A stretch of DNA of 64,000 nucleotides from Aeromicrobium sp. (GTDB taxonomy: Bacteria > Actinomycetota > Actinomycetes > Propionibacteriales > Nocardioidaceae), in assembly GCF_023146395.1 (NCBI RefSeq), contig NZ_JAGLCD010000018.1, positions 1 through 64,000 of the forward strand. Direction: 5' to 3'. Below the pieces are notes generated by a model. It was not told the DNA's origin. It ran no database searches and worked only from the letters and a program-made list of their open reading frames with translations. Positions within the stretch are counted from its first letter, which is position 1, and each line of letters starts with the position of its first letter. Below are positions 33,667 through 51,864 of this stretch, piece by piece. A program made the position numbers and the translations under genes.

Positions 33667-33703
33667 TCAACACATGAGTTGAAGAAAGCAACGTTGCTGT
33701 TGA
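33667..33703. promoter_or_regulatory. Two class A operators (TCAAC-N6-GTTGA) between ABC and hydratase genes
   Basis: TCAACacatgaGTTGA (33667-33682) is a perfect inverted repeat. GCAACgttgctGTTGA (33688-33703) matches at nine of ten arm positions. The centres are 21 bp apart, two helical turns, so two dimers could sit on one face. They lie in the 167-bp divergent promoter between the NitT/TauT-type operon and the 2-keto-4-pentenoate hydratase gene. Confidence 0.75.
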
Positions 33704-33776
33704 CGAACGTCGAGCGGGTTCGTACGGTGACCTCGCCGCCCCCGCCGGGAGCGGACCGTCGCCCGAGGAGGCGCCC

Positions 33777-34556
33777 ATGTCGCAGCACGCCCGCATCGAA
33801 CGAGAAGCCCAGCGCCTGCTCGGTGTGCACGCCGGCGGGGCGCCCGTCCCGGCGCTCCACGAGGAGGGTGAGCTCGAGCTCGCCGACGCCTACGCGGTCC
33901 AGCGCCGCGTGTTCGGAGAGCTGCACGGATCGTCGCCCGCGGGCTACAAGGTCAGCCTGGTCGCGCCGGAGCACCGTGCCGCGTTCGGGGCCAGCGAGCC
34001 GACGTGCGGTCGCCTCGGGGAGTCGCAGCTGGTCCCCTCGGGGCGGACGATCGCGATGTCGTCGCTGTTCCACCCGCTGGTCGAGCCCGAGCTCGTGTTC
34101 CGCGTCCGGCGCGACCTCTCGCCGAACGCGTCCGCCGACGAGGTCCGGGAGTCGTGCGACGTCATGGCCGGCATGGAGATCCCCGACTCCCGCTGGCGAG
34201 GGTGGTCGCCGGTGCCCGGCCAGACCGTCGGCGACCTCGTCGCTGACGCGTCGTTCGCCGGGCGCGTCGTGCACGCCGAGGTCGGTGTGCCGGCGGCCTC
34301 GCTCGACCTGTCCGCCGTCGTCGGCGAGCTGCGCCACGACGGCGTCGTGATCGGCACGGGCCGCGGCGACGCGGTCATGGGCGATCCTGTGCTCGCCGTG
34401 GCGTGGCTCTCGGGGATGGTGGCCCGCGGTGGCGAGATCCTGCGGGCCGGGGTGCTCGTCGCCTCGGGCACGTTCTTCTACCCGCCGTCGGCCGAGCCGG
34501 GCACCTACACCGCGTCGTACACCGGGATCGGTCACGCGAGCGTGACGTTCGCCTGA
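33777..34556 (+). CDS. 2-keto-4-pentenoate hydratase-like (MhpD/HpcG family)
   Basis: The product is 259 aa, fumarylacetoacetase-like fold. LADAYAVQRRVFGEL, AGYKVSLVAPEHRAAFGASEPTCGRL in pieces, VEPELVFRV (metal-binding Glu) and the C-terminal GDPVLAVAWLSGMVARGGEILRAG segment match MhpD-type hydratases. These enzymes act in meta-cleavage or oxalocrotonate pathways. It is alone on its transcript, under the shared operators at 33667-33703. Confidence 0.85.
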   Translation: MSQHARIEREAQRLLGVHAGGAPVPALHEEGELELADAYAVQRRVFGELHGSSPAGYKVSLVAPEHRAAFGASEPTCGRLGESQLVPSGRTIAMSSLFHPLVEPELVFRVRRDLSPNASADEVRESCDVMAGMEIPDSRWRGWSPVPGQTVGDLVADASFAGRVVHAEVGVPAASLDLSAVVGELRHDGVVIGTGRGDAVMGDPVLAVAWLSGMVARGGEILRAGVLVASGTFFYPPSAEPGTYTASYTGIGHASVTFA

Positions 34557-34585
34557 GGGCGTCGACCCCTGTCCGAATCAATAAA

Positions 34586-34597
34586 ACAAACGCTTGC
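34586..34597. promoter_or_regulatory. Class B near-palindrome ACAAACGCTTGC
   Basis: ACAAACGCTTGC in an A+T-rich segment resembles the sites at 61766-61777 (ACAAACGCTTGT) and 61857-61868 (ACAAACGATCGT). TTGACA (34598-34603) directly follows and could be a -35 box, although no good -10 is seen 17 nt further. It lies in the 243-bp gap before the LIV operon, upstream of that operon's class A operators. Confidence 0.5.
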
Positions 34598-34706
34598 TTG
34601 ACAGGGCAGATTCGCAGTGATTGGCTCGGGGACCTGGACGTGCGGTGCGTCACATTGGTGCGTGATGCAACTGCAATGCCAGTGATTTCTCGTCGGGTGA
34701 CCGAGA

Positions 34707-34756
34707 TCAACACAACAGTTGATTTTCGGCTGCAGCCTGGTCTACAGTGCTGTTGA
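34707..34756. promoter_or_regulatory. Two class A operators at the LIV operon promoter
   Basis: TCAACacaacaGTTGA (34707-34722) is perfect and TCTACagtgctGTTGA (34741-34756) matches at nine of ten arm positions. TTGATT (34719-34724) and TACAGT (34743-34748) have promoter-like spacing and overlap the two sites, so binding would occlude RNA polymerase. The first gene begins at 34800. Confidence 0.75.
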
Positions 34757-34799
34757 CAGATGTGACCCAGAGCACGTTGTGCAGAAGGAGTTGGTGACG

Positions 34800-35894
34800 G
34801 TGGCTCAGCAGGAAGCCGTGGAGGTCGACGACGCTCGACCGCTCGCCACGGCCCGCCGCGGGGGCTCGGAGGTGCCGCCACGCAGCCCCGTCGCGCGCCT
34901 TGCCGGGGCCGTCTCGCACGTCGGTGTCCCGATGCTCGTGATGCTCGTCGTGCTGGTCGCCATCGGCATCGGCGGCTCGCAGGTCTGGATCGACATCGCG
35001 AACCTCGCGATCATCGCGGCCCTCGGGGCGATCGGTCTCGACCTCCTGCTCGGCCACACCGGGCTCATCTCCGTGGGCAACGCGGCGCTCCTGGCCATCG
35101 GAGCCTTCGTCGTCGCGGTGCTCAACCGGGAGATGGAGGTGCCCTTCGTCCTCGGGGTCGCGCTCTCGGCGCTCGTGTGCGGCATCGTCGGCATGATCGT
35201 CGCGCTGCCGGCGCTCCGGATCTCGGGCCTGTACCTGGCCATCGCCACGATGGGCTTCCACTTCGTCGCGATCTGGGCACTGCGCGAGTGGCAGACCGGT
35301 CAGGTCGGTGACAGCGGGTTCACGGTGCCCATCGCGAACGTGTTCGGTCTCGAGCTGCTGGACCTGCGGGTCTGGTTCGTGTTCCTGGCCGTCGTGCTGG
35401 TCGTCGTGCTGCTGGGATACCGCGCGCTGGTCGAGAGCCGTCCGGGGCGGGCGCTGCACGCGATCCGCGAGCGCCCGGCCCTGGCCCAGATGAGCGGGAT
35501 CTCCGTGACGCGGCACAAGGTCACGGCCTTCGTCGTCAGCTCGATGCTGATCGGCGTCGCGGGTGCCTTCACGGCCTACTACATCGGGCACGTCAGCTAC
35601 GCGAACTTCCAGAACTTCCACATCGCGATCGAGTACCTCGCGATGGTCATCCTGGGTGGGCTCGGCACGGTCTACGGCCCGGTCATCGGCGCCGCGGTCA
35701 TCGTGAGCCTGCCGCACCTGGTCCGCGAGCTGCGGGTCGGACTCGGCCTGGAGGACGCGATCAGCAACACCCAGATCTACCTGGTCCAGGGCGCCGTGGT
35801 CGGCCTGGCGGTCTCGGCGATGGTCATCTTCCAGCCCCGCGGGCTCGTGGGTCTCGGCGAGAGTCTCGGTCGACTGGTCAGGAGGAAGCGATGA
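34800..35894 (+). CDS. livM: LIV-type ABC transporter permease (LivM-like)
   Basis: The product is 364 aa. A cytoplasmic N-terminus of about 40 residues precedes about nine helices. LLLGHTGLISVGNAALLAIGAF and the MAIS-like loop are the LivM hallmarks, as is GGLGTVYGPVIGAAVIV near the C-terminus. The GTG at 34800 was chosen because AAGGAG lies 9 nt upstream. A GTG at 34794 is too close to it. It starts a five-gene operon (permease, two ATPases, permease, binding protein). Confidence 0.88.
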   Translation: MAQQEAVEVDDARPLATARRGGSEVPPRSPVARLAGAVSHVGVPMLVMLVVLVAIGIGGSQVWIDIANLAIIAALGAIGLDLLLGHTGLISVGNAALLAIGAFVVAVLNREMEVPFVLGVALSALVCGIVGMIVALPALRISGLYLAIATMGFHFVAIWALREWQTGQVGDSGFTVPIANVFGLELLDLRVWFVFLAVVLVVVLLGYRALVESRPGRALHAIRERPALAQMSGISVTRHKVTAFVVSSMLIGVAGAFTAYYIGHVSYANFQNFHIAIEYLAMVILGGLGTVYGPVIGAAVIVSLPHLVRELRVGLGLEDAISNTQIYLVQGAVVGLAVSAMVIFQPRGLVGLGESLGRLVRRKR

Positions 35895-36625
35895 GCCACG
35901 TCGAGGTCACGGACGTCAGCGTCCGCTACAGCCGCGGAGCAGCGGCGGTCCACGGTGCCAGCCTGTCGGTCGCGCGCGGTGAGTGCGTCGTCGTGCTGGG
36001 TGCCAACGGCGCCGGCAAGACGAGCCTGGTGCGCTCGATCTGCGGATTCCTGCCGCACGAGAACGTGCAGGTGTCGGGGCAGGTGTCGGTCGGCGGCACG
36101 TCGATCGGGCGGCTCGACCCGGCGCGCCGGGCGCGCCGCGGCATCGCCTACATCCCCGAGCGCGACAAGATCTTCCGTGAGCTCAACGTCTCGGAGAACC
36201 TCGAGATCTTCGCCCAGCGTCGCCGGTCGAAGGCTGGACTCGCCGATGACCGGGAGCTCGCGTTCGACGTCTTCCCGGCGCTGACCAAGCTCCCCGCCGG
36301 CCGGCCGGCCGGGTTCCTGAGCGGCGGCGAGCAGCAGATGCTCGCGATCTCGGGAGCGATCATCAGCTCGCCCGACGTCCTGCTGGTCGACGAGCCGTCG
36401 CTCGGACTCGCGCCGATCATCGTGCTCGAGATGATGAGTGCCCTCGGGCGCATCATGGCCGAGCGTGAGCTGGCGCTGCTCCTGGTCGACCAGAACGTGC
36501 GGTCGACGCAGCACCTCGCGCACCACGTCTACACGATGGACTCCGGGGTCCTGCGCCTCGAGACCGGCCCGAACGTGCACGAACGCCTCATCCGTGAGGG
36601 CTACTCCAAGGCGGTCGCCTCGTGA
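35891..36625 (+). CDS. livF: LIV-type ABC transporter ATP-binding protein (LivF-like)
   Basis: The product is 244 aa. Walker A is GANGAGKTSL, the Q loop is in GIAYIPERDKIF, the signature is LSGGEQQMLA, Walker B is VLLVDEPSLGLAP and the H-loop equivalent is LLLVDQNVRS. The IPE and LGLAP features identify the LivF branch. It overlaps the permease stop and the LivG start by 4 nt each. Confidence 0.92.
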   Translation: MSHVEVTDVSVRYSRGAAAVHGASLSVARGECVVVLGANGAGKTSLVRSICGFLPHENVQVSGQVSVGGTSIGRLDPARRARRGIAYIPERDKIFRELNVSENLEIFAQRRRSKAGLADDRELAFDVFPALTKLPAGRPAGFLSGGEQQMLAISGAIISSPDVLLVDEPSLGLAPIIVLEMMSALGRIMAERELALLLVDQNVRSTQHLAHHVYTMDSGVLRLETGPNVHERLIREGYSKAVAS

Positions 36626-37428
36626 ACGCCCCCGTGCTGACCTGCGACGCGGTCTCGCTGCACTTCGGCGGGGTCTCGGCCCTGCGCGACGTCTCGTTCG
36701 CCCTCGCCCCGGGCGAGATCGTCGGCCTGATCGGACCGAACGGTGCCGGCAAGTCGAGCCTGATCAACTGCCTGACCGGGTTCTACGTGCCCCAGGAGGG
36801 CGTCGTCACGGTCGCGGACCGGGACATCAGCGGACTCGATCCCCGCCAGGTGGCGCTGCTGGGCGTCTCCCGGACCTTCCAGCAGGCCGAGAGCCTGTCC
36901 GGGATGGGCGCGGCCGACGTCATGATGCTGGGGCGCGACCGGTTCCTGCCGTCGGGCTTCGCGGCCTACGCGTTCGGCTGGCCGCCTGCGCGGAAGGCCG
37001 AGCGCGCGGCGCGCCAGGTCGTCGAGGGGCTGGCCGCCGACCTCGGCATCGCCGAGGTCGTGCGCCGCAACACCGCCTACGAGAACCTGCCGTACGGCGT
37101 GCGCAAGCTCGTCGACCTGGGTCGTGCCCTGGCCTGCGAGCCGGAGATCCTCCTGATGGACGAGCCGGCCGCGGGCCTGACGTCGGACGAGAAGGCCGTG
37201 ATGTCAGACGTCATCGCGCGCATCCGCGACACGATGGGCATCGCCCAGCTGCTCGTCGACCACGACCTCGCGTTCGTGTCGGCCCTGGCTCAGCGCCTCG
37301 TCGTGCTCGACGCCGGTGCCGTCATCGCGACCGGGCCCAACGACGTCGTGCTCGCCGACCCGCGTGTCATCGACTCCTACATCGGCCGACCCGACACCGA
37401 CACCACGCCGCTCGAGGAGCACGCATGA
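36622..37428 (+). CDS. livG: LIV-type ABC transporter ATP-binding protein (LivG-like)
   Basis: The product is 268 aa. Walker A is GPNGAGKSSL, the Q loop is SRTFQQAESL, the signature degenerates to LPYGVRKLVDLGRAL, Walker B is ILLMDEPAAGL and LLVDHDLAFV follows. The RTFQ, LPYG and DHD motifs are LivG-type. It works as a heterodimer with the LivF protein encoded upstream. Overlaps of 4 nt on both sides imply translational coupling. Confidence 0.92.
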   Translation: MNAPVLTCDAVSLHFGGVSALRDVSFALAPGEIVGLIGPNGAGKSSLINCLTGFYVPQEGVVTVADRDISGLDPRQVALLGVSRTFQQAESLSGMGAADVMMLGRDRFLPSGFAAYAFGWPPARKAERAARQVVEGLAADLGIAEVVRRNTAYENLPYGVRKLVDLGRALACEPEILLMDEPAAGLTSDEKAVMSDVIARIRDTMGIAQLLVDHDLAFVSALAQRLVVLDAGAVIATGPNDVVLADPRVIDSYIGRPDTDTTPLEEHA

Positions 37429-38309
37429 GCATCGACATGGCCTACCAGACGGTCGTGAGCGCCGCGGTCGTCGGCGTGATCTACAGCCTCATCGCCCTGG
37501 GGTACGTGGTCGTGTACCGCGCCAGCCGGGTGTTCAACTTCCTCCAGGCGCAGTTCCTGTACTTCGGTGCGCTGCTGTTCATCACGCTGTGGGGCGGCGA
37601 CAGTCTCGCGACCTTCGCGCTGGCCCTCGTGGCCACGACGATCGTCGTGGGCATCGGCGGCGCCGCCCTGTACGCGCTCGTGATACACCGCACCGCCGGT
37701 CAGCCGCACTGGATCCAGATGCTGCTCACGATGTTCCTCGGGATCGCGGGCCTCAACATCGCCCAGCTCGTCTGGGGCTCGGACCCGCGCTTCCTCAGCG
37801 CGCCGGGGGAGCGGGTCAACTGGACCTTGCCCGGCGGCGCCGTGATCAGCCGTGTCGACGTCGTGATCCTGGTGGGCGGCGTCCTGCTGTGGCTCGCCCT
37901 GTACTGGCTCCTGACGGTCTCGCCGATGGGCGTCCGGCTGCGGGCCACGGCCGAGAACTCCACACTCTCGGCGTACAGCGGCATGCCGCTGACGCGGTGG
38001 TTCGGGGTGGCCTGGGCTATCGCGGCGGCCGTCGGCGTGCTCGCGGGCGTCAGCTTCGCGATGCGCGTGCCGGTCGACCCGACCATCACCGAGATCGGAC
38101 TGATGGCCTTCCCGGCCGCGATGATCGGCGGGATGGACAGTGTCAAGGGCTGTCTCGTCGGCGCGATGATCCTGGCGCTGGTCCAACAGTTCGCCGCCGT
38201 GCTCTGGGACGTCCAGACGAGCATCGCCGCCGGCTTCGCCGTCGTGCTGCTCGTGCTGATGATCCGTCCGCGAGGCCTGTACGGCTCCCCCATCGTGGAC
38301 CGCGTCTAG
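37425..38309 (+). CDS. livH: LIV-type ABC transporter permease (LivH-like)
   Basis: The product is 294 aa with about eight helices. GVIYSLIALGYVVVYRASRVFNFLQ is the N-terminal LivH hallmark, and FPAAMIGGMDSVKGCLVGAMIL closes the channel loop. The MVYRAS/FNF segment is family-typical. It pairs with the LivM-like protein at 34800. A 63-nt gap separates it from the binding-protein gene. Confidence 0.9.
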   Translation: MSIDMAYQTVVSAAVVGVIYSLIALGYVVVYRASRVFNFLQAQFLYFGALLFITLWGGDSLATFALALVATTIVVGIGGAALYALVIHRTAGQPHWIQMLLTMFLGIAGLNIAQLVWGSDPRFLSAPGERVNWTLPGGAVISRVDVVILVGGVLLWLALYWLLTVSPMGVRLRATAENSTLSAYSGMPLTRWFGVAWAIAAAVGVLAGVSFAMRVPVDPTITEIGLMAFPAAMIGGMDSVKGCLVGAMILALVQQFAAVLWDVQTSIAAGFAVVLLVLMIRPRGLYGSPIVDRV

Positions 38310-38372
38310 CGCACGGTCCCGGGTCCGCGTGTCGGCACGGCCGGCCGCCCCATCGAGAAGAAGAGGCAACAC

Positions 38373-39620
38373 ATGAGGACGAACAACCTGTCCGGCCGTC
38401 GTGCTGGTCGGATCGTACGAGCGTCGGGGGCGGCCGCTCTGGTCGTGACGATGCTGGCCGCGTGCGGCGGGGGGAGCGACTCCGGGACGGAGGACGGCCC
38501 CTACAAGATCGGCTTCGTCGGCAGCCTGTCCGGAGCCGTGGCCCCGGTGGGCACGGCCCTCCTGGCCGGGTTCAACCTCGCGATCGACGACGTGAACGCG
38601 AACGGCGGCGTCAACGGTCGGGAGATCGAGGTCGTGACCGAGGACGACGAGGCCGACGCCTCGGCCGGCATCACGGCGGTCCGTGCGCTGGCGGCCGAGG
38701 ACGTCCTGATGGTCGCGGGCGCGAACATCAGCACCGTGGCCGAGGGCATCCTCCCGACCCTCGAGCGCGAGGAGATCGTCCTGCTCGCCCAGGGTGCGCC
38801 TCCGTCGATCCTGGACCCCGTGCGTCGCACGATGTTCCAGATCGACCAGACGTCGTCCTCGAACGCCCAGCCCATGACGGAGTTCGCGGCCGAGCTGCTC
38901 GGCAAGGAGAAGTTCTCCGCCGGCATCGGTCCGGTCGACACCCCGGCCGGCGTGGCCTGGGGCGACAACGTCGAGACCCTCGCGTCGGACAAGGGCTTCA
39001 CGATCACGAGTCGCGTCTCGGTCCCCGTGACCCCCGGCGACGTGACGGCCCAGGCCCAGCGCCTGGTCGAGGGCTCGCCCGACATCCTGCTGCTGGAGGC
39101 TCCGGACGGACCCCTCGTCGCCCTCGTGGAGAAGATCCGCGACCTCGGCTACACCAAGCCGATCGTGAACTTCTCCTTCGGCTCGGCGTCCAAGACGCTC
39201 GAGACGATCGCCGACCCGGGTCTGTACGTGTTCCGCACGGCGGCGCAGTACGACCCGCTGAGCGAGGACGAGGGCACGAAGAAGTTCGTCGAGCTCGTCG
39301 ATGCCGCCGGCCAGGCCGACCAGGCGCGGTCCGCGACGCAGTACACGCAGGGCTACCTGATGGGCCTCACGGTCGTGAAGGCGCTCGAGGAGTGCGGTGA
39401 GGACTGCGACCGGGCCAAGCTCGCCGACGTGTTCAACGACCTCGAGGTCGAGACCGGTGGCTTCACGCCCAGCCCGTTGACGTTCACCGAGGACGACCAC
39501 CTCGCGACCAACAGCGGCTCCTTCTACTCGTGGGACGGCTCGGCCATCGTCGTGGCGCTCGACGGCCAGCAGTTCGCCGGATCCGTCTACACGCTCGAGG
39601 CGGAGGTCCCCTCCTCCTGA
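38373..39620 (+). CDS. livK: LIV-type ABC transporter substrate-binding lipoprotein
   Basis: The product is 415 aa. The signal peptide carries lipobox LAAC (MLAACGGG, Cys about 30). YKIGFVGSLSGAVAPVGTALLAGFNLAIDDVNANGGVNGREIEVV (in pieces) begins a Leu/Ile/Val-binding fold. Members of this group bind branched amino acids, amides or aromatic acids. The catabolic setting favours a carboxylic acid. It closes the LIV operon and is followed by a perfect terminator. Confidence 0.9.
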   Translation: MRTNNLSGRRAGRIVRASGAAALVVTMLAACGGGSDSGTEDGPYKIGFVGSLSGAVAPVGTALLAGFNLAIDDVNANGGVNGREIEVVTEDDEADASAGITAVRALAAEDVLMVAGANISTVAEGILPTLEREEIVLLAQGAPPSILDPVRRTMFQIDQTSSSNAQPMTEFAAELLGKEKFSAGIGPVDTPAGVAWGDNVETLASDKGFTITSRVSVPVTPGDVTAQAQRLVEGSPDILLLEAPDGPLVALVEKIRDLGYTKPIVNFSFGSASKTLETIADPGLYVFRTAAQYDPLSEDEGTKKFVELVDAAGQADQARSATQYTQGYLMGLTVVKALEECGEDCDRAKLADVFNDLEVETGGFTPSPLTFTEDDHLATNSGSFYSWDGSAIVVALDGQQFAGSVYTLEAEVPSS

Positions 39621-39627
39621 GCACGGA

Positions 39628-39664
39628 CTCGGCGGGACCCGCTCGACGAGCGGGTCCCGCCGAG
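39628..39664. terminator. Perfect 18-bp hairpin terminator
   Basis: CTCGGCGGGACCCGCTCG (39628-39645) pairs fully with 39647-39664, leaving an apical loop of a few bases. It starts 8 nt after the binding-protein stop and so ends the LIV operon. Confidence 0.88.
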
Positions 39665-39719: not shown

Positions 39720-41378
39720 ATGAAGGTCTACGAAGCGATGGCCCAGGCCTTCCGCGATGAAGGCACCACGACCCTGTTCTCCCTCATGGGGGACGCCAAC
39801 ATGTACTGGATGGCGACCCTGGTCGCGGACGGACAGGTCACCAACGTCCACGCGCGCCACGAGAACGCCGCGATGGCGATGGCCGACGGCTACGCCCGGA
39901 GCACGGGCTCGGTCGGCGTCGCGACGGTCACGAGCGGTCCGGGCCTCGCCCAGGCGATGACGGCCCTCGTCGGTGCCGCGCGCTACCAGTCGCCCGTCGT
40001 GCTGTTCGCGGGCGACACCCAGCGCGGCGACACGGCCGCGCTCCAGTACATCGACCACGAGGCGTTCGGGCGTCTGTGCGGCGTGCACGTCGAGACCGTG
40101 CGGTCCGCGAACCAGGCCCTCGACGCGGTGCAGCGGGCGTTCCTGCGCGCGCGCACGCTGCGCCAGACCGTCATGCTGAGCGTCCCCATGGACGTGCAGG
40201 AGCAGCTGCTCGACGAGTACCGCTACACCCCCTCGCACGAGCTCGGCGAGGCCTCGGGCGTCCTGGTGCCCGACCAGGACACGCTCGATCAGGCGCTCGG
40301 CCTGATCGCGTCCTCACGGCGCCCCGTCCTGATCGTCGGCACCGGCGCGGTCCAGGGCGACGCCCTCGGGCCCGTCGCCGCACTGGGCGACCGCATCGGT
40401 GCCCTGTACGCCACGACCCTGCTGGCCAAGGGCACGTTCGACGACTCCCCGTGGGGTCTCGGCGTCGCCGGGACGTTCTCGCGGCCGCAGGCCGAGAAGG
40501 TGCTCGGCGAGGCCGACCTGGTGATCGGGGTCGGCGCGAGCCTCAACCGGTTCACGCGCCAGGAGGGCCACCTGTTCGCCCAGGCGCGCACGATCCAGAT
40601 CTCGCACCAGGCCGCCGCCGAGATGGTGCAAAAGCAGCCCACGACCCTCTACCTGCGGGGCGACGCCGCGGCAACGGTCCAGCTCCTCGAGGAGTCCCTG
40701 GCCGAGGCCGAGCACACCGCGGTGGGTTGGCGCGAGCGCTTCGAGCGCGAGGCGTGGGACCCGCACGACGCCGCGGAGGCCGGCCGGGTCGAGCCCGGCG
40801 AGGAGGCCATGGACCCGCGCGACGTCGTGGCCGCGCTGGAGCGGACGATCCCCGACGACGCGATCGTGGTCTCGGGCGCGGGGCACTTCTGGTCGTTCGT
40901 CAACAAGGGCCTCACGGGCCGCGGCGGGCGACGCTTCCTGTACTGCCTCGGGTTCGGCTCGATCGGTCAGGCGCTGCCGGTCGCGGTCGGCGTCGCGGTC
41001 GGTCACCCGGGTCGCCCGGTCGTCGTGATCGACGGGGACTCCAGCATCCTCATGCACGTCGCGGAGCTCGACACGGCGGTCCGCGCCGGCGTCGACCTCA
41101 CCGCGGTGGTGCTCGACGACGACGCGATGGGGGCCGAGCTCCACAAGCTCCGGCTGAAGCAGGTCCCCGACGCGGCGGCGCTCGTGCCGACGCCGCGCCT
41201 CGACCTCGTGGCTCAGGGCCTCGGTGCCGAGGGGTCGATCGTGCGCGACCAGGCGGTCCTGGACGAGCTCCTCGACGGGCACGCCTGGACGGGCGTGACC
41301 CTCGTGGACGCCAAGGTCTCGACGTCGGTCGTCGACGTGTCGGCCGTGATGGGCAACGAGGTCAGCGTCACGGCCTGA
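39720..41378 (+). CDS. Thiamine-diphosphate-dependent enzyme (decarboxylase/carboligase-like)
   Basis: The product is 552 aa in the usual PYR, middle and PP domain order. E48 in HARHENAAMAMADGYAR is the cofactor-activating glutamate. The PP site reads GDSS (about 439-442) and LDDDAMG (about 465-471), where the family normally has GDG(S) and NN. The neighbouring C-terminal AELHKLRLKQVPDAA is also unusual. Benzoylformate-decarboxylase-like or carboligase activity is possible. It lies 55 nt after a strong terminator, so it needs its own promoter, which I do not see clearly. The 3' end overlaps the convergent hydratase by 11 nt. Confidence 0.83.
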   Translation: MKVYEAMAQAFRDEGTTTLFSLMGDANMYWMATLVADGQVTNVHARHENAAMAMADGYARSTGSVGVATVTSGPGLAQAMTALVGAARYQSPVVLFAGDTQRGDTAALQYIDHEAFGRLCGVHVETVRSANQALDAVQRAFLRARTLRQTVMLSVPMDVQEQLLDEYRYTPSHELGEASGVLVPDQDTLDQALGLIASSRRPVLIVGTGAVQGDALGPVAALGDRIGALYATTLLAKGTFDDSPWGLGVAGTFSRPQAEKVLGEADLVIGVGASLNRFTRQEGHLFAQARTIQISHQAAAEMVQKQPTTLYLRGDAAATVQLLEESLAEAEHTAVGWRERFEREAWDPHDAAEAGRVEPGEEAMDPRDVVAALERTIPDDAIVVSGAGHFWSFVNKGLTGRGGRRFLYCLGFGSIGQALPVAVGVAVGHPGRPVVVIDGDSSILMHVAELDTAVRAGVDLTAVVLDDDAMGAELHKLRLKQVPDAAALVPTPRLDLVAQGLGAEGSIVRDQAVLDELLDGHAWTGVTLVDAKVSTSVVDVSAVMGNEVSVTA

Positions 41379-44359: not shown

Positions 44360-46312
44360 TCACGATCGGGAGGCCTCGCGGCGTCGACCGACGAAGTCGC
44401 CGAGGTCGGACGTCCGGGTCATCTGCCAGAACTCGACGTTGAGGAACGGGTTCAGGTACACGACCCGGCCCTCGGCGTTGCGCCAGTTCGACGACGTCCC
44501 CGGGTGGGTCCAGACCATGGCCGCGTGCGTGCGGTCGACGGCGTCGTTGTACTCCTCGAACGTGGTCTCGTCGACCTCGATCTCGTGCAGCCCGTCGTCG
44601 ACCATCTGGGTCACGAGCCTGCGGATGTACTGCATCTGGATCTCGTTGAAGTAGGTGAAGCTGCCGCTGCCGGGGAACGTGTTGGGTCCGCCGAGCATGA
44701 AGAGGTTCGGGAACCCCGGGACCGCCACCCCGAGGTAGGCCCTCGGGTTGTCATCGTCCCACGCCTCGCGGATCGTCTGCCCGCCTCGCCCGACGACCTC
44801 GAACGAGGCCAGGAAGCGCGCGACGTCGAAGCCCGTGGCCCAGACGAGGACGTCGATGTCCTCGTGCGTCGTGCCCGACTCGGTCGTGACGCCGGCCTCG
44901 GTCACCGCGGTGACGCCCTCCGGTACGAGCGTGACGTTGTCGCGCTTCAGCGCGTCGTACCACCCGTTGTCCAGCAGGATCCGCTTGCCGTAGGGCGGGT
45001 AGGTGGGCACGACCTTCTCCATCAGGTCGGGACGGTCGGCCAGGAACGTCTCGATGTAGCGCGTGAAGTAGGCCCGGTGGGCGTCGTTGCGTGCGTTGAC
45101 GGAGCGCTCGGGGTGCTCCCACTCCGGGTCGACCCGCAGGGCCTCGATGACCTTGTCGCCGAACTGCCAGAACAGGCGGGCCCAGTACCAGGCGAAGTAG
45201 ATCGGGCACGACTCCAGGAGCTGGCGCAGCTCAGGCCCGATCGGGGTCATGAACTTCTCGAACGGCGCGACCCACTGCGTCGAGCGCTGGAACACCGTCA
45301 GGTGCCCGACGCGGCCCGCGATGGCCGGCACGATCTGCATCGCGCTGGCGCCGTTGCCGACGACGGCCACGCGCTTGCCGTCGAGGTCGAGCCCGGGAGG
45401 CCACTCGGCCGAGTGGAACTCGGGTCCGGCGAACGTGCCGACGCCGGGGACGGCGGGCAGCTTGGGACGGTTCAGGACGCCGACCGCGCTGATGAGGATC
45501 GTCGACTCCAGGACCTCCTCGGCCCCCGAGCTGGTGCGGATCGTGGTGCGCCACACCATCGCGTCCTCGTCGTAGACGGCACGCAGGACCTCGGTGTCGT
45601 AGCGCACCCGGTCGGTGGCGCCGAGGCGGTCGACGACCTCGGCGAAGTACTCCTGGATGCGGTCGCGCAGCTCGAAGTGCTGGCCCCAGTCATTGCGGGC
45701 GAAGGAGTAGGAGTAGAGGTGGCTCGGCGTGTCGACGCCGGCACCGGGGTACACCGTCTGCCACCAGTTGCCGCCGGCCTCAGGCTGCTTCTCGATGACG
45801 ACGTAGTCGGCCCCCATGGCCTCCAGCTGGTGGGTCGCGGCGATCCCGGCCAGTCCGGCGCCGATCACGACGACCGACAGGCCATGCGTCTGCGGTGAGG
45901 TCGGCATGGCCTGCTCGGCGACGTGGGGGTCGATGCGCGTCGCGATGCCCTCGCTCAGCATGCCGCCGTACTCGGCGCCGACCGGCTCGCCCATGCAGAT
46001 CGACATCATCTCGATCGTGAGCTCCGGCGAGGGGAACTCGATCGCCGGCGGCTTGCCCTCCTGCAGGTCGACGATCGCGGCGACCGCGGCCTCCCGGATC
46101 TCGGCCTGGACGTCCTCGGGCAGCCCGCCGGAGTCGTGGTCGCCGAGGCCCTTGCCGCGCGTCGGCCGGTACGGGTCGCGCAGCCAGCGCTCGTCGCCGG
46201 TCGCCTGGAACACCAGCATGAGGAGCGCCGGGACGTTCGCGCTCGCCGCGGCCGTCCGGATCTGCGCCTCGGTGAGGCGCGGTGCGGGGGCGAGGTCGAT
46301 CGGCGGTGTCAT
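44360..46312 (-). CDS. HAPMO-type Baeyer-Villiger monooxygenase
   Basis: The product is 650 aa, far longer than the 500-550 aa of ordinary members. An N-terminal extension (about 1-143) precedes the FAD motif GAGLAGIAATHQ (about 151). The BVMO fingerprint FAGPEFHSAEWP (about 294-305) is intact, followed by the NADPH motif GNGASA (about 319-324). Extension and total length match 4-hydroxyacetophenone monooxygenase. It would insert oxygen beside a ketone to give an ester or lactone. The start at 46312 was chosen over one at 46369, which would run into the operator region. It is first in a four-gene operon. Confidence 0.9.
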   Translation of the reverse strand: MTPPIDLAPAPRLTEAQIRTAAASANVPALLMLVFQATGDERWLRDPYRPTRGKGLGDHDSGGLPEDVQAEIREAAVAAIVDLQEGKPPAIEFPSPELTIEMMSICMGEPVGAEYGGMLSEGIATRIDPHVAEQAMPTSPQTHGLSVVVIGAGLAGIAATHQLEAMGADYVVIEKQPEAGGNWWQTVYPGAGVDTPSHLYSYSFARNDWGQHFELRDRIQEYFAEVVDRLGATDRVRYDTEVLRAVYDEDAMVWRTTIRTSSGAEEVLESTILISAVGVLNRPKLPAVPGVGTFAGPEFHSAEWPPGLDLDGKRVAVVGNGASAMQIVPAIAGRVGHLTVFQRSTQWVAPFEKFMTPIGPELRQLLESCPIYFAWYWARLFWQFGDKVIEALRVDPEWEHPERSVNARNDAHRAYFTRYIETFLADRPDLMEKVVPTYPPYGKRILLDNGWYDALKRDNVTLVPEGVTAVTEAGVTTESGTTHEDIDVLVWATGFDVARFLASFEVVGRGGQTIREAWDDDNPRAYLGVAVPGFPNLFMLGGPNTFPGSGSFTYFNEIQMQYIRRLVTQMVDDGLHEIEVDETTFEEYNDAVDRTHAAMVWTHPGTSSNWRNAEGRVVYLNPFLNVEFWQMTRTSDLGDFVGRRREASRS

Positions 46313-46362
46313 GGCGGCTCCAACATCACGAGAACACGGGTGTAGCGGGACGAGAACAGGTA

Positions 46363-46426
46363 TCAACATTCACGTTGACAGCACGATCGTGACAGACGGT
46401 CGGACACGTGTCAACACTCGTGTTGC
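46363..46426. promoter_or_regulatory. Two class A operators at the BVMO operon promoter
   Basis: TCAACattcacGTTGA (46363-46378) is perfect and TCAACactcgtGTTGC (46411-46426) matches at nine of ten arm positions. They lie 51-114 nt upstream of the monooxygenase start (minus strand) and 34 nt beyond the ligase stop. The arm spacing is the same N6 as in the other promoters. Confidence 0.75.
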
Positions 46427-46459
46427 CGACACGACCGGTCGGATGATCGGCGGGATCGA

Positions 46460-48010
46460 TCAGGACAGGGGGATCTCCCGGACGGCGCGCAGGTTGACCT
46501 TGCCCGTCGGGGTCATGGGCAGCTCGTCGACGAACGTCACGATGCGCGGTCGGCGGTAGTTGCCCAGCTCGCGCTCGACGGTCGTGACCACGAGGTCGGT
46601 CGTCACGGCGGGGGAGCGGGTCACGACGACGGCGCGGACGATCTCGCCCCACTCCTCGTGCGGCGCGCCGACGACGGACACCTCCGCGACGCCGGGGATG
46701 TTCGCGATGACGCGTTCGATCTCGGCCGGGAAGATGTTCTCGCCGCCGGAGATGATCATGTTCTTGATCCGGTCGGCGATGTAGACGTAGCCCTGCGCGT
46801 CCCAGGTCGCGCCGTCGCCGCTGTGGACCCAGCCGTCGTGGACCAGTGCGGCGGTCTCCTCGGGCTTGTTGAAGTAGTGGAGCATGTTGTTCGGACCCCG
46901 GTGGCAGAGCTCACCGACCGTGCGGCCGTCCTGGGGCACCGGGTGTCCGTCGGGGTCGATGACCTTGACGTCGGTGATCAGTCCGGCTCGCCCGCAGGAG
47001 CGCAGCAGGCCGGGCTCGTCGCCGGCGAGCGCCCGCCGGTGCGCCTCCGGCCCCAGGATCGTCCCCGTGCCGAACTCCGACATGCCCCAGATCTGCACGA
47101 GGTCCGCCCCGAAGTAGGCCCCGGCGGCCCGGATGACCTCCTCGCCCATCCGGGCGCCGCCGTAGCCCACGAGGCGGACCGACGGGGTCTCGATGCTGCT
47201 GGCCCGCAGGACCTCGACCATGCGCGGCAGCATCGTCGCGATGCAGAAGAACGTCGTGACGCCGTGGTCGTTGATGACCCGGACCGTCTCCTCGGCCTCG
47301 AAGTTCGTGATGACGACGGGGCGCCCCATCGCCAGGTGCGCGAACGGCATGTACCCGGTCACGTGGAAGAACTGGCCCAGCATCATGAACACGTCGGACT
47401 CGTCGATGCGCTGCGCCGCGAGGTAGTTCACCAGGTTGCCCGCGTAGGTGTACTGCGAGTGCACCGCGGCCTTCGGGATCCCGGTCGTGCCGCCGGTCGA
47501 CACGGCCAGGTAGGGCTCGTGGATCAGCGACGTCGGGTCCGGGAGCTCGGGCAGGGAGCCCCGGTCGGCGGCCGCCTCGGCGATGAGCTGCTCGTAGGGC
47601 GAGTCGTTCCCCGGGCTCCACATGACCCACTGCGCACCTGGCGCATGGGGTCGCAGCTCGTCGACCTCGTCGCTGAACTCTTCGTCGTAGAACACGACCC
47701 GGGGCTGGCAGTCCTCGAGCGCGGCCTGGTTCAGGGCCGACGACTGGCGCCAGTTGAGCGGGAAGAGCACCGTGCCCGACCAGGCGCAGGCGATGTACAG
47801 CTCGACGAACTCCAGGGAGTTCCGCCCGAAGGCGACGACCCGTTCCCCGAGGCCTGCCTCGAGTCGTCCGGTCATCGCCCCGGCGAGCAGCAGGGTGCGG
47901 TCCTCGAGCTCGGCGAACGTGCGGGTGATCTTCAGGTGAGGCTCGATCAGGGCGACGCCGTGGGGGTCGGCGTGGGCGGCCTTGGTGGTCCATTGCGCGA
48001 GGTTCAGCAC
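46460..48010 (-). CDS. Acyl-CoA synthetase (AMP-forming)
   Basis: The product is 516 aa of the ANL superfamily. The P-loop is STGGTTGIPKAAV, YGGARMGEEV and the WGMSEFGTGTI (A5 motif) form the acyl-adenylate site, and the C-terminal PMTPTGKVNLRAVRE carries the catalytic Lys. It should activate a carboxylic acid to its CoA thioester. The GTG at 48010 follows GAAGGAG closely, which decides the start. It is divergent from the SDR gene, sharing a class A operator. Confidence 0.9.
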   Translation of the reverse strand: MLNLAQWTTKAAHADPHGVALIEPHLKITRTFAELEDRTLLLAGAMTGRLEAGLGERVVAFGRNSLEFVELYIACAWSGTVLFPLNWRQSSALNQAALEDCQPRVVFYDEEFSDEVDELRPHAPGAQWVMWSPGNDSPYEQLIAEAAADRGSLPELPDPTSLIHEPYLAVSTGGTTGIPKAAVHSQYTYAGNLVNYLAAQRIDESDVFMMLGQFFHVTGYMPFAHLAMGRPVVITNFEAEETVRVINDHGVTTFFCIATMLPRMVEVLRASSIETPSVRLVGYGGARMGEEVIRAAGAYFGADLVQIWGMSEFGTGTILGPEAHRRALAGDEPGLLRSCGRAGLITDVKVIDPDGHPVPQDGRTVGELCHRGPNNMLHYFNKPEETAALVHDGWVHSGDGATWDAQGYVYIADRIKNMIISGGENIFPAEIERVIANIPGVAEVSVVGAPHEEWGEIVRAVVVTRSPAVTTDLVVTTVERELGNYRRPRIVTFVDELPMTPTGKVNLRAVREIPLS

Positions 48011-48103
48011 GAGGTCTCCTTCGGGATGGCGCGTGGTCGCGGCGGCGTCTCGTGACGTCGAGCCAGCGGCGTGCGGACATCGTGACACCGGTCACAAGCC
48101 GAG

Positions 48104-48119
48104 TCAACTTCTGTGTTGA
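48104..48119. promoter_or_regulatory. Class A operator between acyl-CoA ligase and SDR-TetR genes
   Basis: TCAACttctgtGTTGA is a perfect inverted repeat centred in the 164-bp divergent promoter. It sits 56 nt upstream of the SDR ATG (and so of the downstream TetR gene) and 94 nt from the ligase start. It would allow the TetR protein to regulate its own operon. Confidence 0.75.
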
Positions 48120-48174
48120 TTTTGCTCCGGGGACCTGCGAGCATCCTCGGCACCATCGACACGAAGGAGCCGAG

Positions 48175-48969
48175 ATGTCCCACGTCCTCGTCACAGGAGC
48201 CGCCTCCGGGATGGGCGCGGCGACCGCTCGCCTGCTCGCCGCGGGCGGCCATCGGGTCGTCGGGATCGACGTCGACGCCGACGGACTCGGGCGCCTTGCG
48301 GCCGACGGCTCGCTCGTCGAGGCGCTCGTGGTCGACCTCGCCGACCCGGCCGCGATCACGGCCGCGGTCGGTGGTCGTGAGGTCGATGCGCTCGTCAACG
48401 TCGCGGGCCTCGGGCCCGATGCCCAGAACGCCCGGTTGATCTGGTCGGTCAACCTGCTGGCGCCGCTGCGGGTCGCCGCGGCGGTCTCGGTGCGCGCGGG
48501 CGGATCGATCGTCAACGTCGCGTCGATCACCGGCGAGCTCGCGGTGGCCCGGCACGCCGACCTGCTCGAGGACCCGCTGCGCGAGGGGTTCCTCGACGAG
48601 GTCGTGGCGGTGGCGGGCGAGCCCGCCGAGGCGTACACGCACAGCAAGTGGGGCCTCCTGTGCGAGACCGAGCGGATGGCGGTGCGCCTGGCTCCGCAGG
48701 TGCGCGTCAACGCCGTCTCGCCGGGCGTCGTCGAGACGCCGATGGGCGAGCGCAGCATGCAGTTCGACTGGACCCGCAAGGCCGCCGACCGCATCCCGGC
48801 AGGCCGGCTCGGGCGGGCCGACGAGGTCGCCCGTGCGGTCCGGTTCCTGATCTCTCCCGACGCCAGCTACGTCGTCGGGTCGCGGCTCGTGGTCGACGGC
48901 GGCTACGTGGCGCGGCAGCGCACGCGCACGCCGAGCGCGCCGATCTCCGGTGCCGTGGAGGTAGGTTGA
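48175..48969 (+). CDS. SDR family oxidoreductase
   Basis: The product is 264 aa. TGAASGMGAATARLL (about 7-21) binds NAD(H), followed by acidic D at the strand-2 end (GIDVD). VNVASITGE has the catalytic Ser and YTHSKWG the Tyr/Lys pair. The C-terminal RFLISPDASYVVGSRLVVDGGY is typical. It probably oxidises a hydroxyacyl-CoA or alcohol intermediate. It lies 37 nt upstream of the TetR gene, and the two are probably co-transcribed. Confidence 0.88.
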   Translation: MSHVLVTGAASGMGAATARLLAAGGHRVVGIDVDADGLGRLAADGSLVEALVVDLADPAAITAAVGGREVDALVNVAGLGPDAQNARLIWSVNLLAPLRVAAAVSVRAGGSIVNVASITGELAVARHADLLEDPLREGFLDEVVAVAGEPAEAYTHSKWGLLCETERMAVRLAPQVRVNAVSPGVVETPMGERSMQFDWTRKAADRIPAGRLGRADEVARAVRFLISPDASYVVGSRLVVDGGYVARQRTRTPSAPISGAVEVG

Positions 48970-49006
48970 CCCGTGGAGCTCGAGAGTCGGACGGAAGGGG
49001 TGGGTA

Positions 49007-49666
49007 ATGACGACCAGCGGGATCGGTCGCCGGCGGGCGCAGGCGCGTCGGGAGGGCAACCCCACGTATCTCGAGAAGCGGCGCCAGATGGTGCAGGCCG
49101 CGGCCGTGCTCTTCAAGGAGAAGGGGTTCGAGGCCACGACCCTCGCCGACATCGGCGAGGCGGTCGGGGTCGACCGTGCCTCGATCTACTACTACGTCGA
49201 GAGCAAGAAGGAGCTCTTGCTCGAGGCCGTCACGGGCGTCAGCAGCCTCAACCTCGACCTGGCGAAGTCGCTCGCCGGTCAGCAGCACCTCGCGACGGCC
49301 GAGCGCATCAGGATGTTCATCCTCAGCACGTTGCGGACGTACGACGAGAACTACCCCCAGGTGTACGTGTACATCCAGGAGAACATGGCCAAGGTGGCCC
49401 CGGACGACGAGCCGTGGGCCAAGGAGATGGCGCGCCAGGTCGTCGAGTTCGAGAGCCTGATCGACGAGCTCATCCGCGAGGCGATCGAGGACGGCACGTT
49501 CCGGCCTGGTCTCGACCCACGGCTCACGGCCAAGGCCCTGTGGGGCATGTTGAACTGGACGCACCGCTGGCACCGCCCCGACGGCTCGACCACGGTCGAG
49601 CAGATCGCCGAGAACTTCTCCGAGATCTTCCTCGCCGGCGTCCTCGCGGAGCCGCAGGAGTCCTGA
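49007..49666 (+). CDS. TetR/AcrR-family transcriptional regulator
   Basis: The product is 219 aa. An N-terminal helix-turn-helix (about 25-70: MVQAAAVLFKEKGFEATTLADIGEAVGVDRASIYYYV in pieces) is followed by an all-helical ligand domain with ELIREAIEDGTFRPGLDPRL. It has the length and layout of acyl-CoA-responsive TetR repressors. The basic N-terminal tail (GRRRAQARRE) may contact DNA. It is the only regulator between 26.4 and 64 kb and lies in the middle of the class A operator set, including one upstream of its own operon. I infer that it binds TCAAC-N6-GTTGA and is released by a pathway thioester. Confidence 0.85.
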   Translation: MTTSGIGRRRAQARREGNPTYLEKRRQMVQAAAVLFKEKGFEATTLADIGEAVGVDRASIYYYVESKKELLLEAVTGVSSLNLDLAKSLAGQQHLATAERIRMFILSTLRTYDENYPQVYVYIQENMAKVAPDDEPWAKEMARQVVEFESLIDELIREAIEDGTFRPGLDPRLTAKALWGMLNWTHRWHRPDGSTTVEQIAENFSEIFLAGVLAEPQES

Positions 49667-49693
49667 CCGGCCTCGCTCGCGCGGGGGTGCGAC

Positions 49694-50623
49694 GTGGCGA
49701 CGACTGAGGCGCCCCGGTGGGACCGCTGGTCGGCGTCGCAGGACGGCGTGGGCGAGAACCCCGTCTGGGACGCCGCGGCCGAGCGCCTCTGGTGGTCCGA
49801 CGTCGTCGGACCGTCGGTGCGGTGGTCGGCCGAGGCCGGCGCCGTGCCGACGTCGGTCGCGATGCCGAGCGACGTCGCGACCTTCGCCCTGGCCGACGGG
49901 GGAGCCGCGGTCGTCGTGCTGGTCGACGGGATCCATGAGCTGCGTGCCGACGGGACCCTGCGACGCCTGCTCGACGCTCCGTACGACCGCGCGCAGCACC
50001 GCTTCAACGACGGGCGCTGCGACACGCGGGGCCGGCTCTGGATCGGGTCGAACCGGATCCCGGGTTCGGGTGCGCCCCGCGGGTCGGCCCGGTTCTGGCG
50101 CCTTGACGCCGCCGGCCTGACCCCGCACATGGACGGGTTCTCGGTGTCGAACGGCACGGCCTTCAGCCCCGAGGGCGACGTCATGTACGCCGCGGACTCG
50201 ATGTCGCGGAGCATCGTCGCGTTCGACTACGACCTCGACACCGGCACGCCCAGCAACCGCCGTGTCTTCGCCACCGTGGAGGGATCCGAGGGTGGCACGG
50301 CCCTGCCGGACGGTGCCGCGGTCGACGCCCGCGGTGGTTACTGGATCGCGGTCTACGGTGCCGGGCTCGTCCTGAGGTTCGCGCCGGACGGGCGCCTCGA
50401 CCGTGTGCTCCGGGCGCCCGTCACCCACCCGACCATGGTGGCGTTCGGTGGGGCGTCGGGTGACCGGATGTTCCTGACCTCGGGACGCGCGTTCGCCTCG
50501 CCAGAGGTCCTGGCCGCCGAGCCGGGGGCGGGGGACGTCTACGTCGCGGACGTGGGTGAGCGGGGTGTGCCCGAGCACCGGTTCGGGTTCCTCGACGCCC
50601 TGCGCCGTGCGTCAACACTGTAG
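49694..50623 (+). CDS. SMP-30/gluconolactonase-family hydrolase
   Basis: The product is 309 aa, six-bladed beta-propeller. GENPVWDAAAERLWWSDVVG holds the first metal ligand Glu, HRFNDGRCDTRGRLWIGS the Asn/Asp site and DGFSVSNGTAFSPEGDVMYAADS (in pieces) the remaining Ca/Zn ligands. Such enzymes open lactones. This would complement the BVMO, which makes lactones or esters. The GTG start is 28 nt after the TetR stop. The class A operator at 50612-50627 overlaps its 3' end. Confidence 0.87.
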   Translation: MATTEAPRWDRWSASQDGVGENPVWDAAAERLWWSDVVGPSVRWSAEAGAVPTSVAMPSDVATFALADGGAAVVVLVDGIHELRADGTLRRLLDAPYDRAQHRFNDGRCDTRGRLWIGSNRIPGSGAPRGSARFWRLDAAGLTPHMDGFSVSNGTAFSPEGDVMYAADSMSRSIVAFDYDLDTGTPSNRRVFATVEGSEGGTALPDGAAVDARGGYWIAVYGAGLVLRFAPDGRLDRVLRAPVTHPTMVAFGGASGDRMFLTSGRAFASPEVLAAEPGAGDVYVADVGERGVPEHRFGFLDALRRASTL

Positions 50624-50627
50624 TTGA
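50612..50627. promoter_or_regulatory. Class A operator before the acyl-CoA dehydrogenase gene
   Basis: TCAACactgtaGTTGA is a perfect inverted repeat that overlaps the last codons of the lactonase gene. It lies 75 nt upstream of the acyl-CoA dehydrogenase start (50702). It is one of the few within coding sequence. Confidence 0.72.
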
Positions 50628-50701
50628 CTCGCGTCCCGACCGCCCTTAGCGTGAGGGGCGATCCGCAGTGGGCGGGTTCCGGTGGCCGGGAGGTTCCAGA
50701 G

Positions 50702-51802
50702 GTGGACGACGTGAGGGACGAGCTGCGCGAGACGACGCGGCAGCTGTTCGCGAAGGAGCTGCCGCTGGAGTCGGCGGTCGAGAGGTCGGGCCTCGACACG
50801 GGGCCCGCTGCCGACTGGGGGCCGCTCTGGCGGCGCGTCACGACCGACCTCGGGGTCACGGCCGTGGCCGTCGACGAGGCGCACGGCGGCCTGGGTCTCG
50901 GCCTGGCCGAGATGGCGGTCGTCCTCGAGGAGGCGGGTCGAGCGTTGTCGCCGCTCCCGCTCGTCGACGCGGCCGTTGCGGCCGTCGTCCTGCGCGACGT
51001 CGCGCCTGATCTCCTGCCGGCCGTCGCCGCGGGCTCCGCGATCGTCGCCGTCGACCTCGGCGTGCGTGACGTGGGTGATGTCGGCCCGACGACCGCGGTC
51101 TCGTTCTTGACGGAGGCCGTCGTCGCCGGTGCCGGCGCGACGCACCTCCTGACATGGCCCTCGCCTCGGCAGGCGGTGGTCGTCGCGGTGGACGCGCCCG
51201 GTGTCACGCGACGGAGCACGACTTCGATCGACCCGACGCGCGACACCGTGCGTCTGGAGCTCGACCGGGTGCTTCCTGACGTGGTCGTGCCCGACCCGGT
51301 CGGCCTGCTGCGCCGGACGGCTCTCGCGGTCCGGCGTCTCGGATCGGCCCTGGACTCGGTCGGTGCGGCGCGGGTCTGTCTCGACGTCGCGGTCGAGCAC
51401 GCCGGCTCCCGCGAGCAGTTCGGGAAGCCGATCGGCTCGTTCCAGGCGGTCAAGCACGCGTGCGCCGAGATGCTCCTCGCGCTCGAGACTGCGGTGTCGA
51501 CGGCCGACGCCGCGGCGCGGACCGCGGTCGACCCGGCCGCTCCCGACTTCGCGGTCGCGGCGGCCCTCGCGCACGACTACTGCTCGCGGTCCTTCGAGCT
51601 CGTGGCGGCCCAGACGATCCAGGTGCTGGGGGGCATCGGGTTCACGTGGGAGCACCCCGCGCACCTGTTCCTGAAGCGCGCCCGGGTCAACGGGCTGCTC
51701 GGCGGGGCGGGCGTCGACGTGCGGCGCGAGCTGGCCGCACACCTCGGGCTGGGGCCGGTCGACACCGGGTCCTCGGCCGCCTTTCCGGCGCTGTCAACGT
51801 AA
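50702..51802 (+). CDS. Acyl-CoA dehydrogenase, short FadE28-like type
   Basis: The product is 366 aa. The N-terminal helices are divergent, and the C-terminal half has GSREQFGKPIGSFQAVKHACAEM and QTIQVLGGIGFTWEHPAHLFLKRA, typical of short FadE28-like subunits. In cholesterol side-chain degradation such subunits pair with a FadE29-like partner in an alpha2-beta2 enzyme. The candidate partner here is the protein at 55544. The GTG at 50702 has GGGAGG 8 nt upstream. The 3' end overlaps the next operator. Confidence 0.82.
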   Translation: MDDVRDELRETTRQLFAKELPLESAVERSGLDTGPAADWGPLWRRVTTDLGVTAVAVDEAHGGLGLGLAEMAVVLEEAGRALSPLPLVDAAVAAVVLRDVAPDLLPAVAAGSAIVAVDLGVRDVGDVGPTTAVSFLTEAVVAGAGATHLLTWPSPRQAVVVAVDAPGVTRRSTTSIDPTRDTVRLELDRVLPDVVVPDPVGLLRRTALAVRRLGSALDSVGAARVCLDVAVEHAGSREQFGKPIGSFQAVKHACAEMLLALETAVSTADAAARTAVDPAAPDFAVAAALAHDYCSRSFELVAAQTIQVLGGIGFTWEHPAHLFLKRARVNGLLGGAGVDVRRELAAHLGLGPVDTGSSAAFPALST

Positions 51803-51864
51803 CAGTTGACAGCCTTCGGTCGGGCGTGCGACGCTGCCGAGGTAGGAATCAACGTCAGTGTTGG
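51794..51864. promoter_or_regulatory. Two class A operators at the mutase operon promoter
   Basis: TCAACgtaacaGTTGA (51794-51809) is perfect. TCAACgtcagtGTTGG (51849-51864) matches at nine of ten arm positions. The mutase start is at 51890, so the second site is only 25 nt upstream of the gene and would block initiation or early elongation. The 5' site overlaps the previous gene's stop. Confidence 0.75.

Follow-up and report, generated by a model that had tools for sequence, protein, structure and literature searches.

The nearest printed operator that we found to the element described here is that of SACE_5754 from Saccharopolyspora erythraea, TCAACA-n2-TGTTGA (PMC6346578; for all papers cited, statements refer to the portions of text available). 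It has the same TCAAC and GTTGA arms, separated by four bases in the footprinted sites A and C rather than six, and its targets are a pyruvate-water dikinase, a glycosyltransferase and a monooxygenase; this likeness concerns the operator only. KstR2, the repressor of the steroid/HIP regulon in actinobacteria, uses the operator AnCAAGnnCTTGnT, with another half-site and an N2 centre (PMC3068626), and has low identity to the regulator studied here. EdcR, the estrogen repressor of the sphingomonad Caenibius, is likewise a TetR-family protein that controls a catabolic cluster, but differs in its operator, TnnCnnTACnAnTnGTAnnGnnA, and its TetR_C_11 domain (PMC8700777). In this study, we analyzed a window of 64,000 nucleotides from Aeromicrobium sp. 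(positions 1 to 64,000 of contig NZ_JAGLCD010000018.1, assembly GCF_023146395.1), in which ten copies of the palindrome TCAAC-N6-GTTGA precede the transcription units of a catabolic island that also contains a TetR-family gene at 49007. Based on the sequence comparisons below, we consider it very likely that these palindromes are operators of the 49007 protein, which would repress the island until an intermediate of the pathway binds it.

TetR regulators of fatty-acid and keto-acid metabolism (PfmR, AibR, FadR and BkaR) were compared by protein only and share 17-29% identity with the 49007 protein. No description of the N6 operator was found in open-access text, a search that lay outside subscription papers and motif databases and would miss plain-letter spellings. 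The available portions of PMC7593942, PMC10304680 and PMC7413915 contain no N6 motif of this kind, and those consulted for KstR3 gave no operator. SRTF1 was considered as well, with an operator known here only by its length, a 22-bp palindrome, and PMC4482099 reports 11 motifs, known here by number only. EdcR and KstR2 were ruled out as matching systems by their other operators (PMC8700777, PMC3068626), the window sites reading TCAAC-N6-GTTGA instead of AnCAAGnnCTTGnT.

Ten palindromes in one genomic region

Searching the window for TCAAC-N6-GTTGA with at most one mismatch returned 12 matches against 0.52 expected, a count reached in none of 100 shuffles (maximum 3). Ten of them are the sites listed in the first-pass annotation, which had placed all ten correctly and had divided them correctly into six exact sites and four with one mismatch in an arm. 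Its further claim that the motif is absent from positions 1-26413 did not strictly hold, because one-mismatch matches were found at 18473 and 22079. In a matrix built only from the exact sites of other bacteria described below, the first scores 1.8 bits, while the second, inside a trypsin/PDZ gene, scores 14.3, little under the weakest of the ten (16.1). The spacing is specific: exact arms occur six times at N6, and at the other gaps from -20 to 40 they occur 0-1 times each (once at six of them).

Both single and paired sites occur, the pairs 21, 34, 48 and 55 bp apart, and the distance from site to start codon is approximately 26-114 bases with starts chosen by eye. The mechanical open reading frame (ORF) starts at 34719 and 46369 run through the sites at 34707 and 46363; however, better starts with ribosome-binding sites, again judged by eye, lie further inside the genes, at about 34794/34800 and 46312, so these two sites are probably upstream of their genes. 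With operons assigned from gene direction and spacing, the sites front everything they had been proposed to cover, namely both complete ATP-binding cassette (ABC) transporters, the hydratase, the Baeyer-Villiger-type monooxygenase (BVMO) operon, the acyl-coenzyme A (CoA) ligase, the operon of the short-chain dehydrogenase (SDR) and the TetR, an acyl-CoA dehydrogenase and the mutase operon.

The genome itself is metagenome-assembled (2,820,054 bases in 21 contigs, 83% complete), leaving a sixth out of sight. Its six exact copies all lie within 33667-51809, and the motif density of the window is not repeated elsewhere in the assembly. Twelve genomes of the same genus, none with this TetR at E 1e-30, hold 14 exact copies together, 0-3 each.

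The palindrome beside homologs of the 49007 regulator

Domain matches place the 49007 protein in the TetR/AcrR family, with a TetR_N DNA-binding domain and an all-helical TetR C-terminal domain, and an exact palindrome stands upstream of its own operon. Of the named NCBIfam TetR equivalogs (FadR, AcuR, SACE_7040, BetI and others), 14 match it and none exceeds its cut-off, the best scoring 53.3 against 250 bits. The recognition helix [DE]RA[STN]xYYY is present in 48 of 49 sequences, the window included, the exception being L070; this count omits seven of 56 rows taken from the wrong strand (L017, L018, L020, L026, L027, L028 and L030) and the partial matches L068 and L071, and L049 has one stop, shown as X. 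Residues 180-188 (GMLNWTHRW) are invariant in a 28-sequence alignment, which was used for structure prediction, and only partly conserved in a set of 30 that is richer in actinobacteria; both alignments were picked for spread. In a structure comparison, the predicted fold is nearest to KstR2 and PfmR.

We fetched 39 loci solely by homology to the 49007 protein (29-48% identity; up to 20.7 kb each, 694,873 bases in total), mostly from alphaproteobacteria but also from gamma- and betaproteobacteria, several Actinomycetota, a Labilithrix bin and a Brevibacillus. These loci contain 120 exact TCAAC-N6-GTTGA palindromes, at least one in 36 of the 39, whereas the same arms at the other spacings from 0 to 14 occur only 0-2 times each. 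The N4 spacing, corresponding to the 4-bp centre of SACE_5754, was found once. Four control arm pairs, one of them the same arms reversed, occur 0-3 times at any spacing. The 120 sites do not represent 120 independent events, because many of the loci come from related sphingomonads. Of these sites, 112 lie outside ORF bodies; the bodies were called by a simple composition method, had their starts trimmed by 90 bases and occupy 79% of positions. Pooling both strands gave the extended consensus (G/A)TCAAC(A/G/T)(C/T)NN(G/A)(T/C/A)GTTGA(C/T), with C following TCAAC in only 2%. Among the 39 site pairs outside the window, a gap of 34 is the commonest, with nine cases; since all nine come from sphingomonad loci whose promoters may go back to a single ancestor, this spacing may not be functional. 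Because the same motif stands beside its relatives in very different bacteria, it very probably marks the binding sites of the 49007 protein, and its unchanged spacing in loci selected by the regulator alone backs the proposal of one regulon under this TetR.

To separate this regulator from TetRs in general, we used nine genomes with a close homolog, comprising 17 close TetRs (at least 100 bits, the window's own included) and 41 distant ones (at most 76.1 bits); matches in 11 further searched genomes were left unclassified. In eight of the nine, sites were called by a slightly stricter pattern (48 places, compared with 62 for the plain exact pattern). An exact site lay within 5 kb of 12 of the 17 close TetRs and none of the 41 distant ones (Fisher p 7e-9), and within 20 kb of 13 and 3, respectively; 44 of the 54 listed sites had a close homolog no further than 25 kb away. 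The sites thus follow close homologs and not the distant TetRs of the same genomes and, together with the kept recognition helix, agree with the earlier naming of 49007 as the regulator.

The genes behind the sites recur as well. In an Actinomycetota metagenome-assembled genome (palsa_506, locus L034), homologs of the TetR (46%), ligase (63%), SDR (52%), acyl-CoA dehydrogenase (36%), mutase (73%), MeaB (52%) and enoyl-CoA hydratase (53%) accompany three exact sites (4735, 9780 and 12368) and one with a single mismatch (7155). In Qaidamihabitans (L052), a BVMO (59%) follows two exact sites, and one-mismatch sites precede the SDR and the TetR. Further site-bearing loci come from Comamonadaceae (L044), Actinomadura (L067), the Sphingobium plasmid pSH1 (L073), a Rhodococcus plasmid (L072) and G011, G012 and G300; of four plasmid records encoding a TetR homolog, two were examined. 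Between them, their sites front genes for ligases, BVMOs, luciferase-type monooxygenases, thiolases, acyl-CoA dehydrogenases, TonB receptors and Liv-type transporters. Judging from these gene contents, the common theme is CoA-dependent catabolism, and the fact that other actinobacteria have homologs of the SDR, ligase, BVMO and mutase following these same sites speaks for a single regulon.

We lean slightly towards a wider reading, in which a previously undescribed TetR subfamily, marked by [DE]RA[STN]xYYY and MLNWTHRW, kept the operator (G/A)TCAAC-N6-GTTGA(C/T) across Actinomycetota and alpha-, beta- and gammaproteobacteria, even as the enzymes in its regulons were exchanged. If this is true, regulator and operator would form a portable module carried along with CoA-dependent catabolic islands, and such islands could be found by operator clusters next to this TetR.

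Proposed mechanism and alternative explanations

From these comparisons we infer that the 49007 protein binds the sites directly, represses rather than activates, and responds to an acyl-CoA. A TetR dimer would bind G/A-TCAAC-N6-GTTGA-C/T before each transcription unit, including its own operon of SDR, TetR and SMP-30/gluconolactonase-like (SGL) lactonase, and occupation of the single or paired palindromes would keep transport and catabolism repressed. Release would follow when a pathway intermediate binds the C-terminal domain; the likeliest candidate is an acyl-CoA produced by the ligase of the regulon. In a plausible pathway, the SDR would oxidize an alcohol to a ketone, the BVMO would convert it to an ester or lactone, and the SGL protein would open the lactone. 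CoA activation by the ligase would then lead to dehydrogenation and hydration, involving the acyl-CoA dehydrogenases, and finally to the B12-dependent mutase step.

Several observations weigh against this assignment. Three of the 39 loci lack an exact site (L033, an 8-kb contig, L069 and L070), and although L070, from Brevibacillus, is distant and differs in its recognition helix, L033 and L069 keep the helix. For five of the 17 close homologs, one each in G192, G012 and G127 and two in G300, the surrounding 5 kb hold no exact site. At least one copy of the exact string is present in 325 of 394 genomes of the class, and some genomes that lack a close TetR homolog carry many (for example 15 in G264, 16 in G320, 17 in G327, 12 in G047 and 13 in G263, against 2-5 for a control pattern). 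Since the string is this common, the motif alone is no proof of a 49007-type regulator; another factor or base composition may lie behind such copies. As for the ligand, the effector of KstR2 is a CoA thioester; DarR, which responds to c-di-AMP, scores 18.9 in the same fold list, and a shared fold is no proof of an acyl-CoA ligand.

Another regulator might own the sites, with 49007 a mere neighbour. Two further TetR genes on the contig, at 66000-66614 and 68542-69138, are no more than 20 kb from the nearest exact site, and two of the three distant TetRs with a site at that range are on this contig. However, they share only 25-28% identity with the 49007 protein and carry the helices ILPGSLYAH and ILAGSLYAH, no distant TetR has an exact site within 5 kb, and loci chosen solely by a 49007 homolog carry the motif, which makes this ownership quite improbable. 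That the palindromes reflect chance, short GC-poor palindromes clustering in promoters and looking alike, is hardly credible: the arms are indeed AT-richer than the 71% GC window and the string arises by chance in many genomes of the class, but N6 alone is enriched, control palindromes are not, no shuffle reaches the count, and genomes of the same genus hold 0-3 copies.

The sign of regulation is another matter, and it is unlikely, though less so than either of these, that the 49007 protein activates the island or activates and represses by promoter. Single and paired sites with varied gaps would allow promoter-specific effects, and the distances of approximately 26-114 bp to the starts fit repression while being compatible with activation. 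AibR and FadR are repressors. The nearest structural relative, KstR2, is a repressor too (PMC3068626).

Taking the 49007 protein as the probable repressor, one palindrome in one metagenome-assembled genome has become a regulon that can be tested and for which a candidate regulator is named. Its mechanism class is ordinary, whereas its operator is unusually well conserved. An operator alike in sphingomonads, pseudomonads and actinobacteria would give a handle for finding and grouping uncharacterised catabolic islands, could help in picking inducer candidates and might serve as a biosensor part working across phyla.

Gene content and extent of the island

The predicted operators and the genes they front are given in Table 1.

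Table 1. Predicted operators and annotated genes of the catabolic island, in window coordinates
Feature	Position	Strand	Basis and remarks
Predicted operator	33667..33682	.	exact TCAAC-N6-GTTGA; between divergent NMT1-type ABC and hydratase genes
Predicted operator	33688..33703	.	one mismatch, GCAAC arm; partner 21 bp away
Predicted operator	34707..34722	.	exact; upstream of Liv-type ABC operon
Predicted operator	34741..34756	.	one mismatch, TCTAC arm; partner 34 bp away
Predicted operator	46363..46378	.	exact; upstream of BVMO (likely start 46312, minus strand)
Predicted operator	46411..46426	.	one mismatch, GTTGC arm; partner 48 bp away
Predicted operator	48104..48119	.	exact; between divergent ligase (likely start 48010) and SDR-TetR-SGL operon (likely start 48175)
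Predicted operator	50612..50627	.	exact; overlaps SGL stop codon, upstream of acyl-CoA dehydrogenase (likely start 50702)
Predicted operator	51794..51809	.	exact; upstream of mutase operon (likely start 51890)
Predicted operator	51849..51864	.	one mismatch, GTTGG arm; partner 55 bp away
NMT1/THI5-like substrate-binding protein	30826..31869	-	domain match
ABC permease (BPD_transp_1)	31955..32788	-	domain match
ABC ATPase, NMT1-type system	32785..33609	-	domain match
2-oxopent-4-enoate hydratase-like protein	33777..34556	+	no Pfam match; NCBIfam matches below cut-off, best E 5.8e-27
Liv-type permease	34800..35894	+	match on longer ORF; start read from sequence
Two Liv-type ATPases	35891..37428 (35891-36625, 36622-37428)	+	domain match
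Second Liv-type permease	37425..38309	+	domain match
Liv-type substrate-binding protein (Peripla_BP_6)	38373..39620	+	domain match
Thiamine diphosphate enzyme, acetolactate-synthase-like	39720..41378	+	no PDB match at E 1e-40
Enoyl-CoA hydratase/isomerase	41368..42264	-	domain match
Zinc-type dehydrogenase	42182..43201	-	domain match; start chosen by analyst
FMN-dependent 2-hydroxyacid dehydrogenase	43198..44349	-	domain match
Baeyer-Villiger-type flavin monooxygenase (BVMO)	44360..46312	-	match on longer ORF; start read from sequence
Acyl-CoA ligase (AMP-binding)	46460..48010	-	match on longer ORF; start read from sequence
SDR, first gene of TetR operon	48175..48969	+	domain match on longer ORF; start read from sequence
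TetR-family regulator, proposed repressor of all ten sites	49007..49666	+	Pfam TetR_N and TetR_C_24; helix DRASIYYY; C-terminal MLNWTHRW
SGL lactonase, third gene of TetR operon	49694..50623	+	domain match
Acyl-CoA dehydrogenase, IpdE2-like below cut-off	50702..51802	+	match on longer ORF
B12-dependent acyl-CoA mutase, large subunit	51890..53500	+	domain and PDB match
B12-binding small subunit	53448..53894	+	start uncertain
MeaB-like GTPase	53588..54781	+	start uncertain
Enoyl-CoA hydratase and second acyl-CoA dehydrogenase	54729..56722	+	domain match

The mutase large subunit is rare, being found in this genome alone among the 394 of the class at E 1e-165; one close ortholog is present in the loci (L034, 73%), clustered with this TetR and these sites. 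Its best PDB match is 4r3u, a 2-hydroxyisobutyryl-CoA mutase. Enzymes of that kind are marked by an Ile replacing the Tyr of methylmalonyl-CoA mutase, and within the WTxRQx motif the window protein has RQY, as in methylmalonyl-CoA mutase, whereas 4r3u has RQI. The thiamine diphosphate enzyme at 39720 scores 160 bits against the actinobacterial 2-hydroxyacyl-CoA lyase NF058623, below its cut-off of 600. Because of this score and the methylmalonyl-type Tyr, the identification of the island with the actinobacterial 2-hydroxyisobutyrate pathway (PMC7176365) was dropped.

We also scanned the contig that carries the window (C10) with the foreign-site matrix. The top scores, 26.1-31.2 bits, belong to the six exact window sites, a ranking that largely follows from training the matrix on exact arms; the matrix was therefore relied on for near-matches only. 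The next ranks were 77253 and 77194 (21.4 each), 51849, 46411, 77259, 92508, 33688 and 34741 (16.1), the match at 92508 lying inside a gene. The stretch at 77194-77274 (L079:13194-13274) holds three sites, each with one mismatch in the form of a GTAGA or TCTAC arm; two of the three overlap. A divergent SDR gene flanks them on one side, and on the other stands a Peripla_BP_4-type ABC transporter, after which comes an enoyl-CoA hydratase. This stretch is probably a seventh regulated promoter, outside the window, and because these sites sit between divergent genes, the regulon probably reaches to at least 77 kb.

The catabolic region starts exactly at the end of tRNA-Ser(CGA) (window 24122-24209). 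Among 15 other genomes of the genus, G255 alone has the symporter gene that precedes this tRNA in the window; its symporter (approximately 82% identity) and tRNA (approximately 88%) resemble those of the contig, the similarity ends exactly at the tRNA end, 24209, and its next 15 kb match the contig only over two short segments, 85 and 107 bases long. Transposase and integrase genes follow the tRNA in the window (transposase genes at 24673-26920), and the end of the tRNA recurs as a partial copy (3 of 22 mismatched) at contig position 95084, close to where the contig ends. Because of this break at the tRNA, the transposase and integrase genes and the partial copy, the island looks horizontally acquired, spanning approximately 70 kb or more.

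Additional features were observed around these elements. Liv-type permease and ABC ATPase domains at window 26366-28032 adjoin the transposase genes and are perhaps remains of a third, incomplete transporter. A second flavin monooxygenase (C10:72235-73968) has a weak site with a TCGAC arm just upstream. Palindrome pairs of another kind, TCAACC-N4-GGTTGA at 41-46 bases apart, were seen in G010, G034, G158 and G207 among the genomes with places listed and are perhaps operators of another regulator. Finally, near the contig end, C10:90941-93361 (L080:10941-13361) encodes SIR2-like and STAND NTPase domains and, from this domain content, looks like an anti-phage defence protein.

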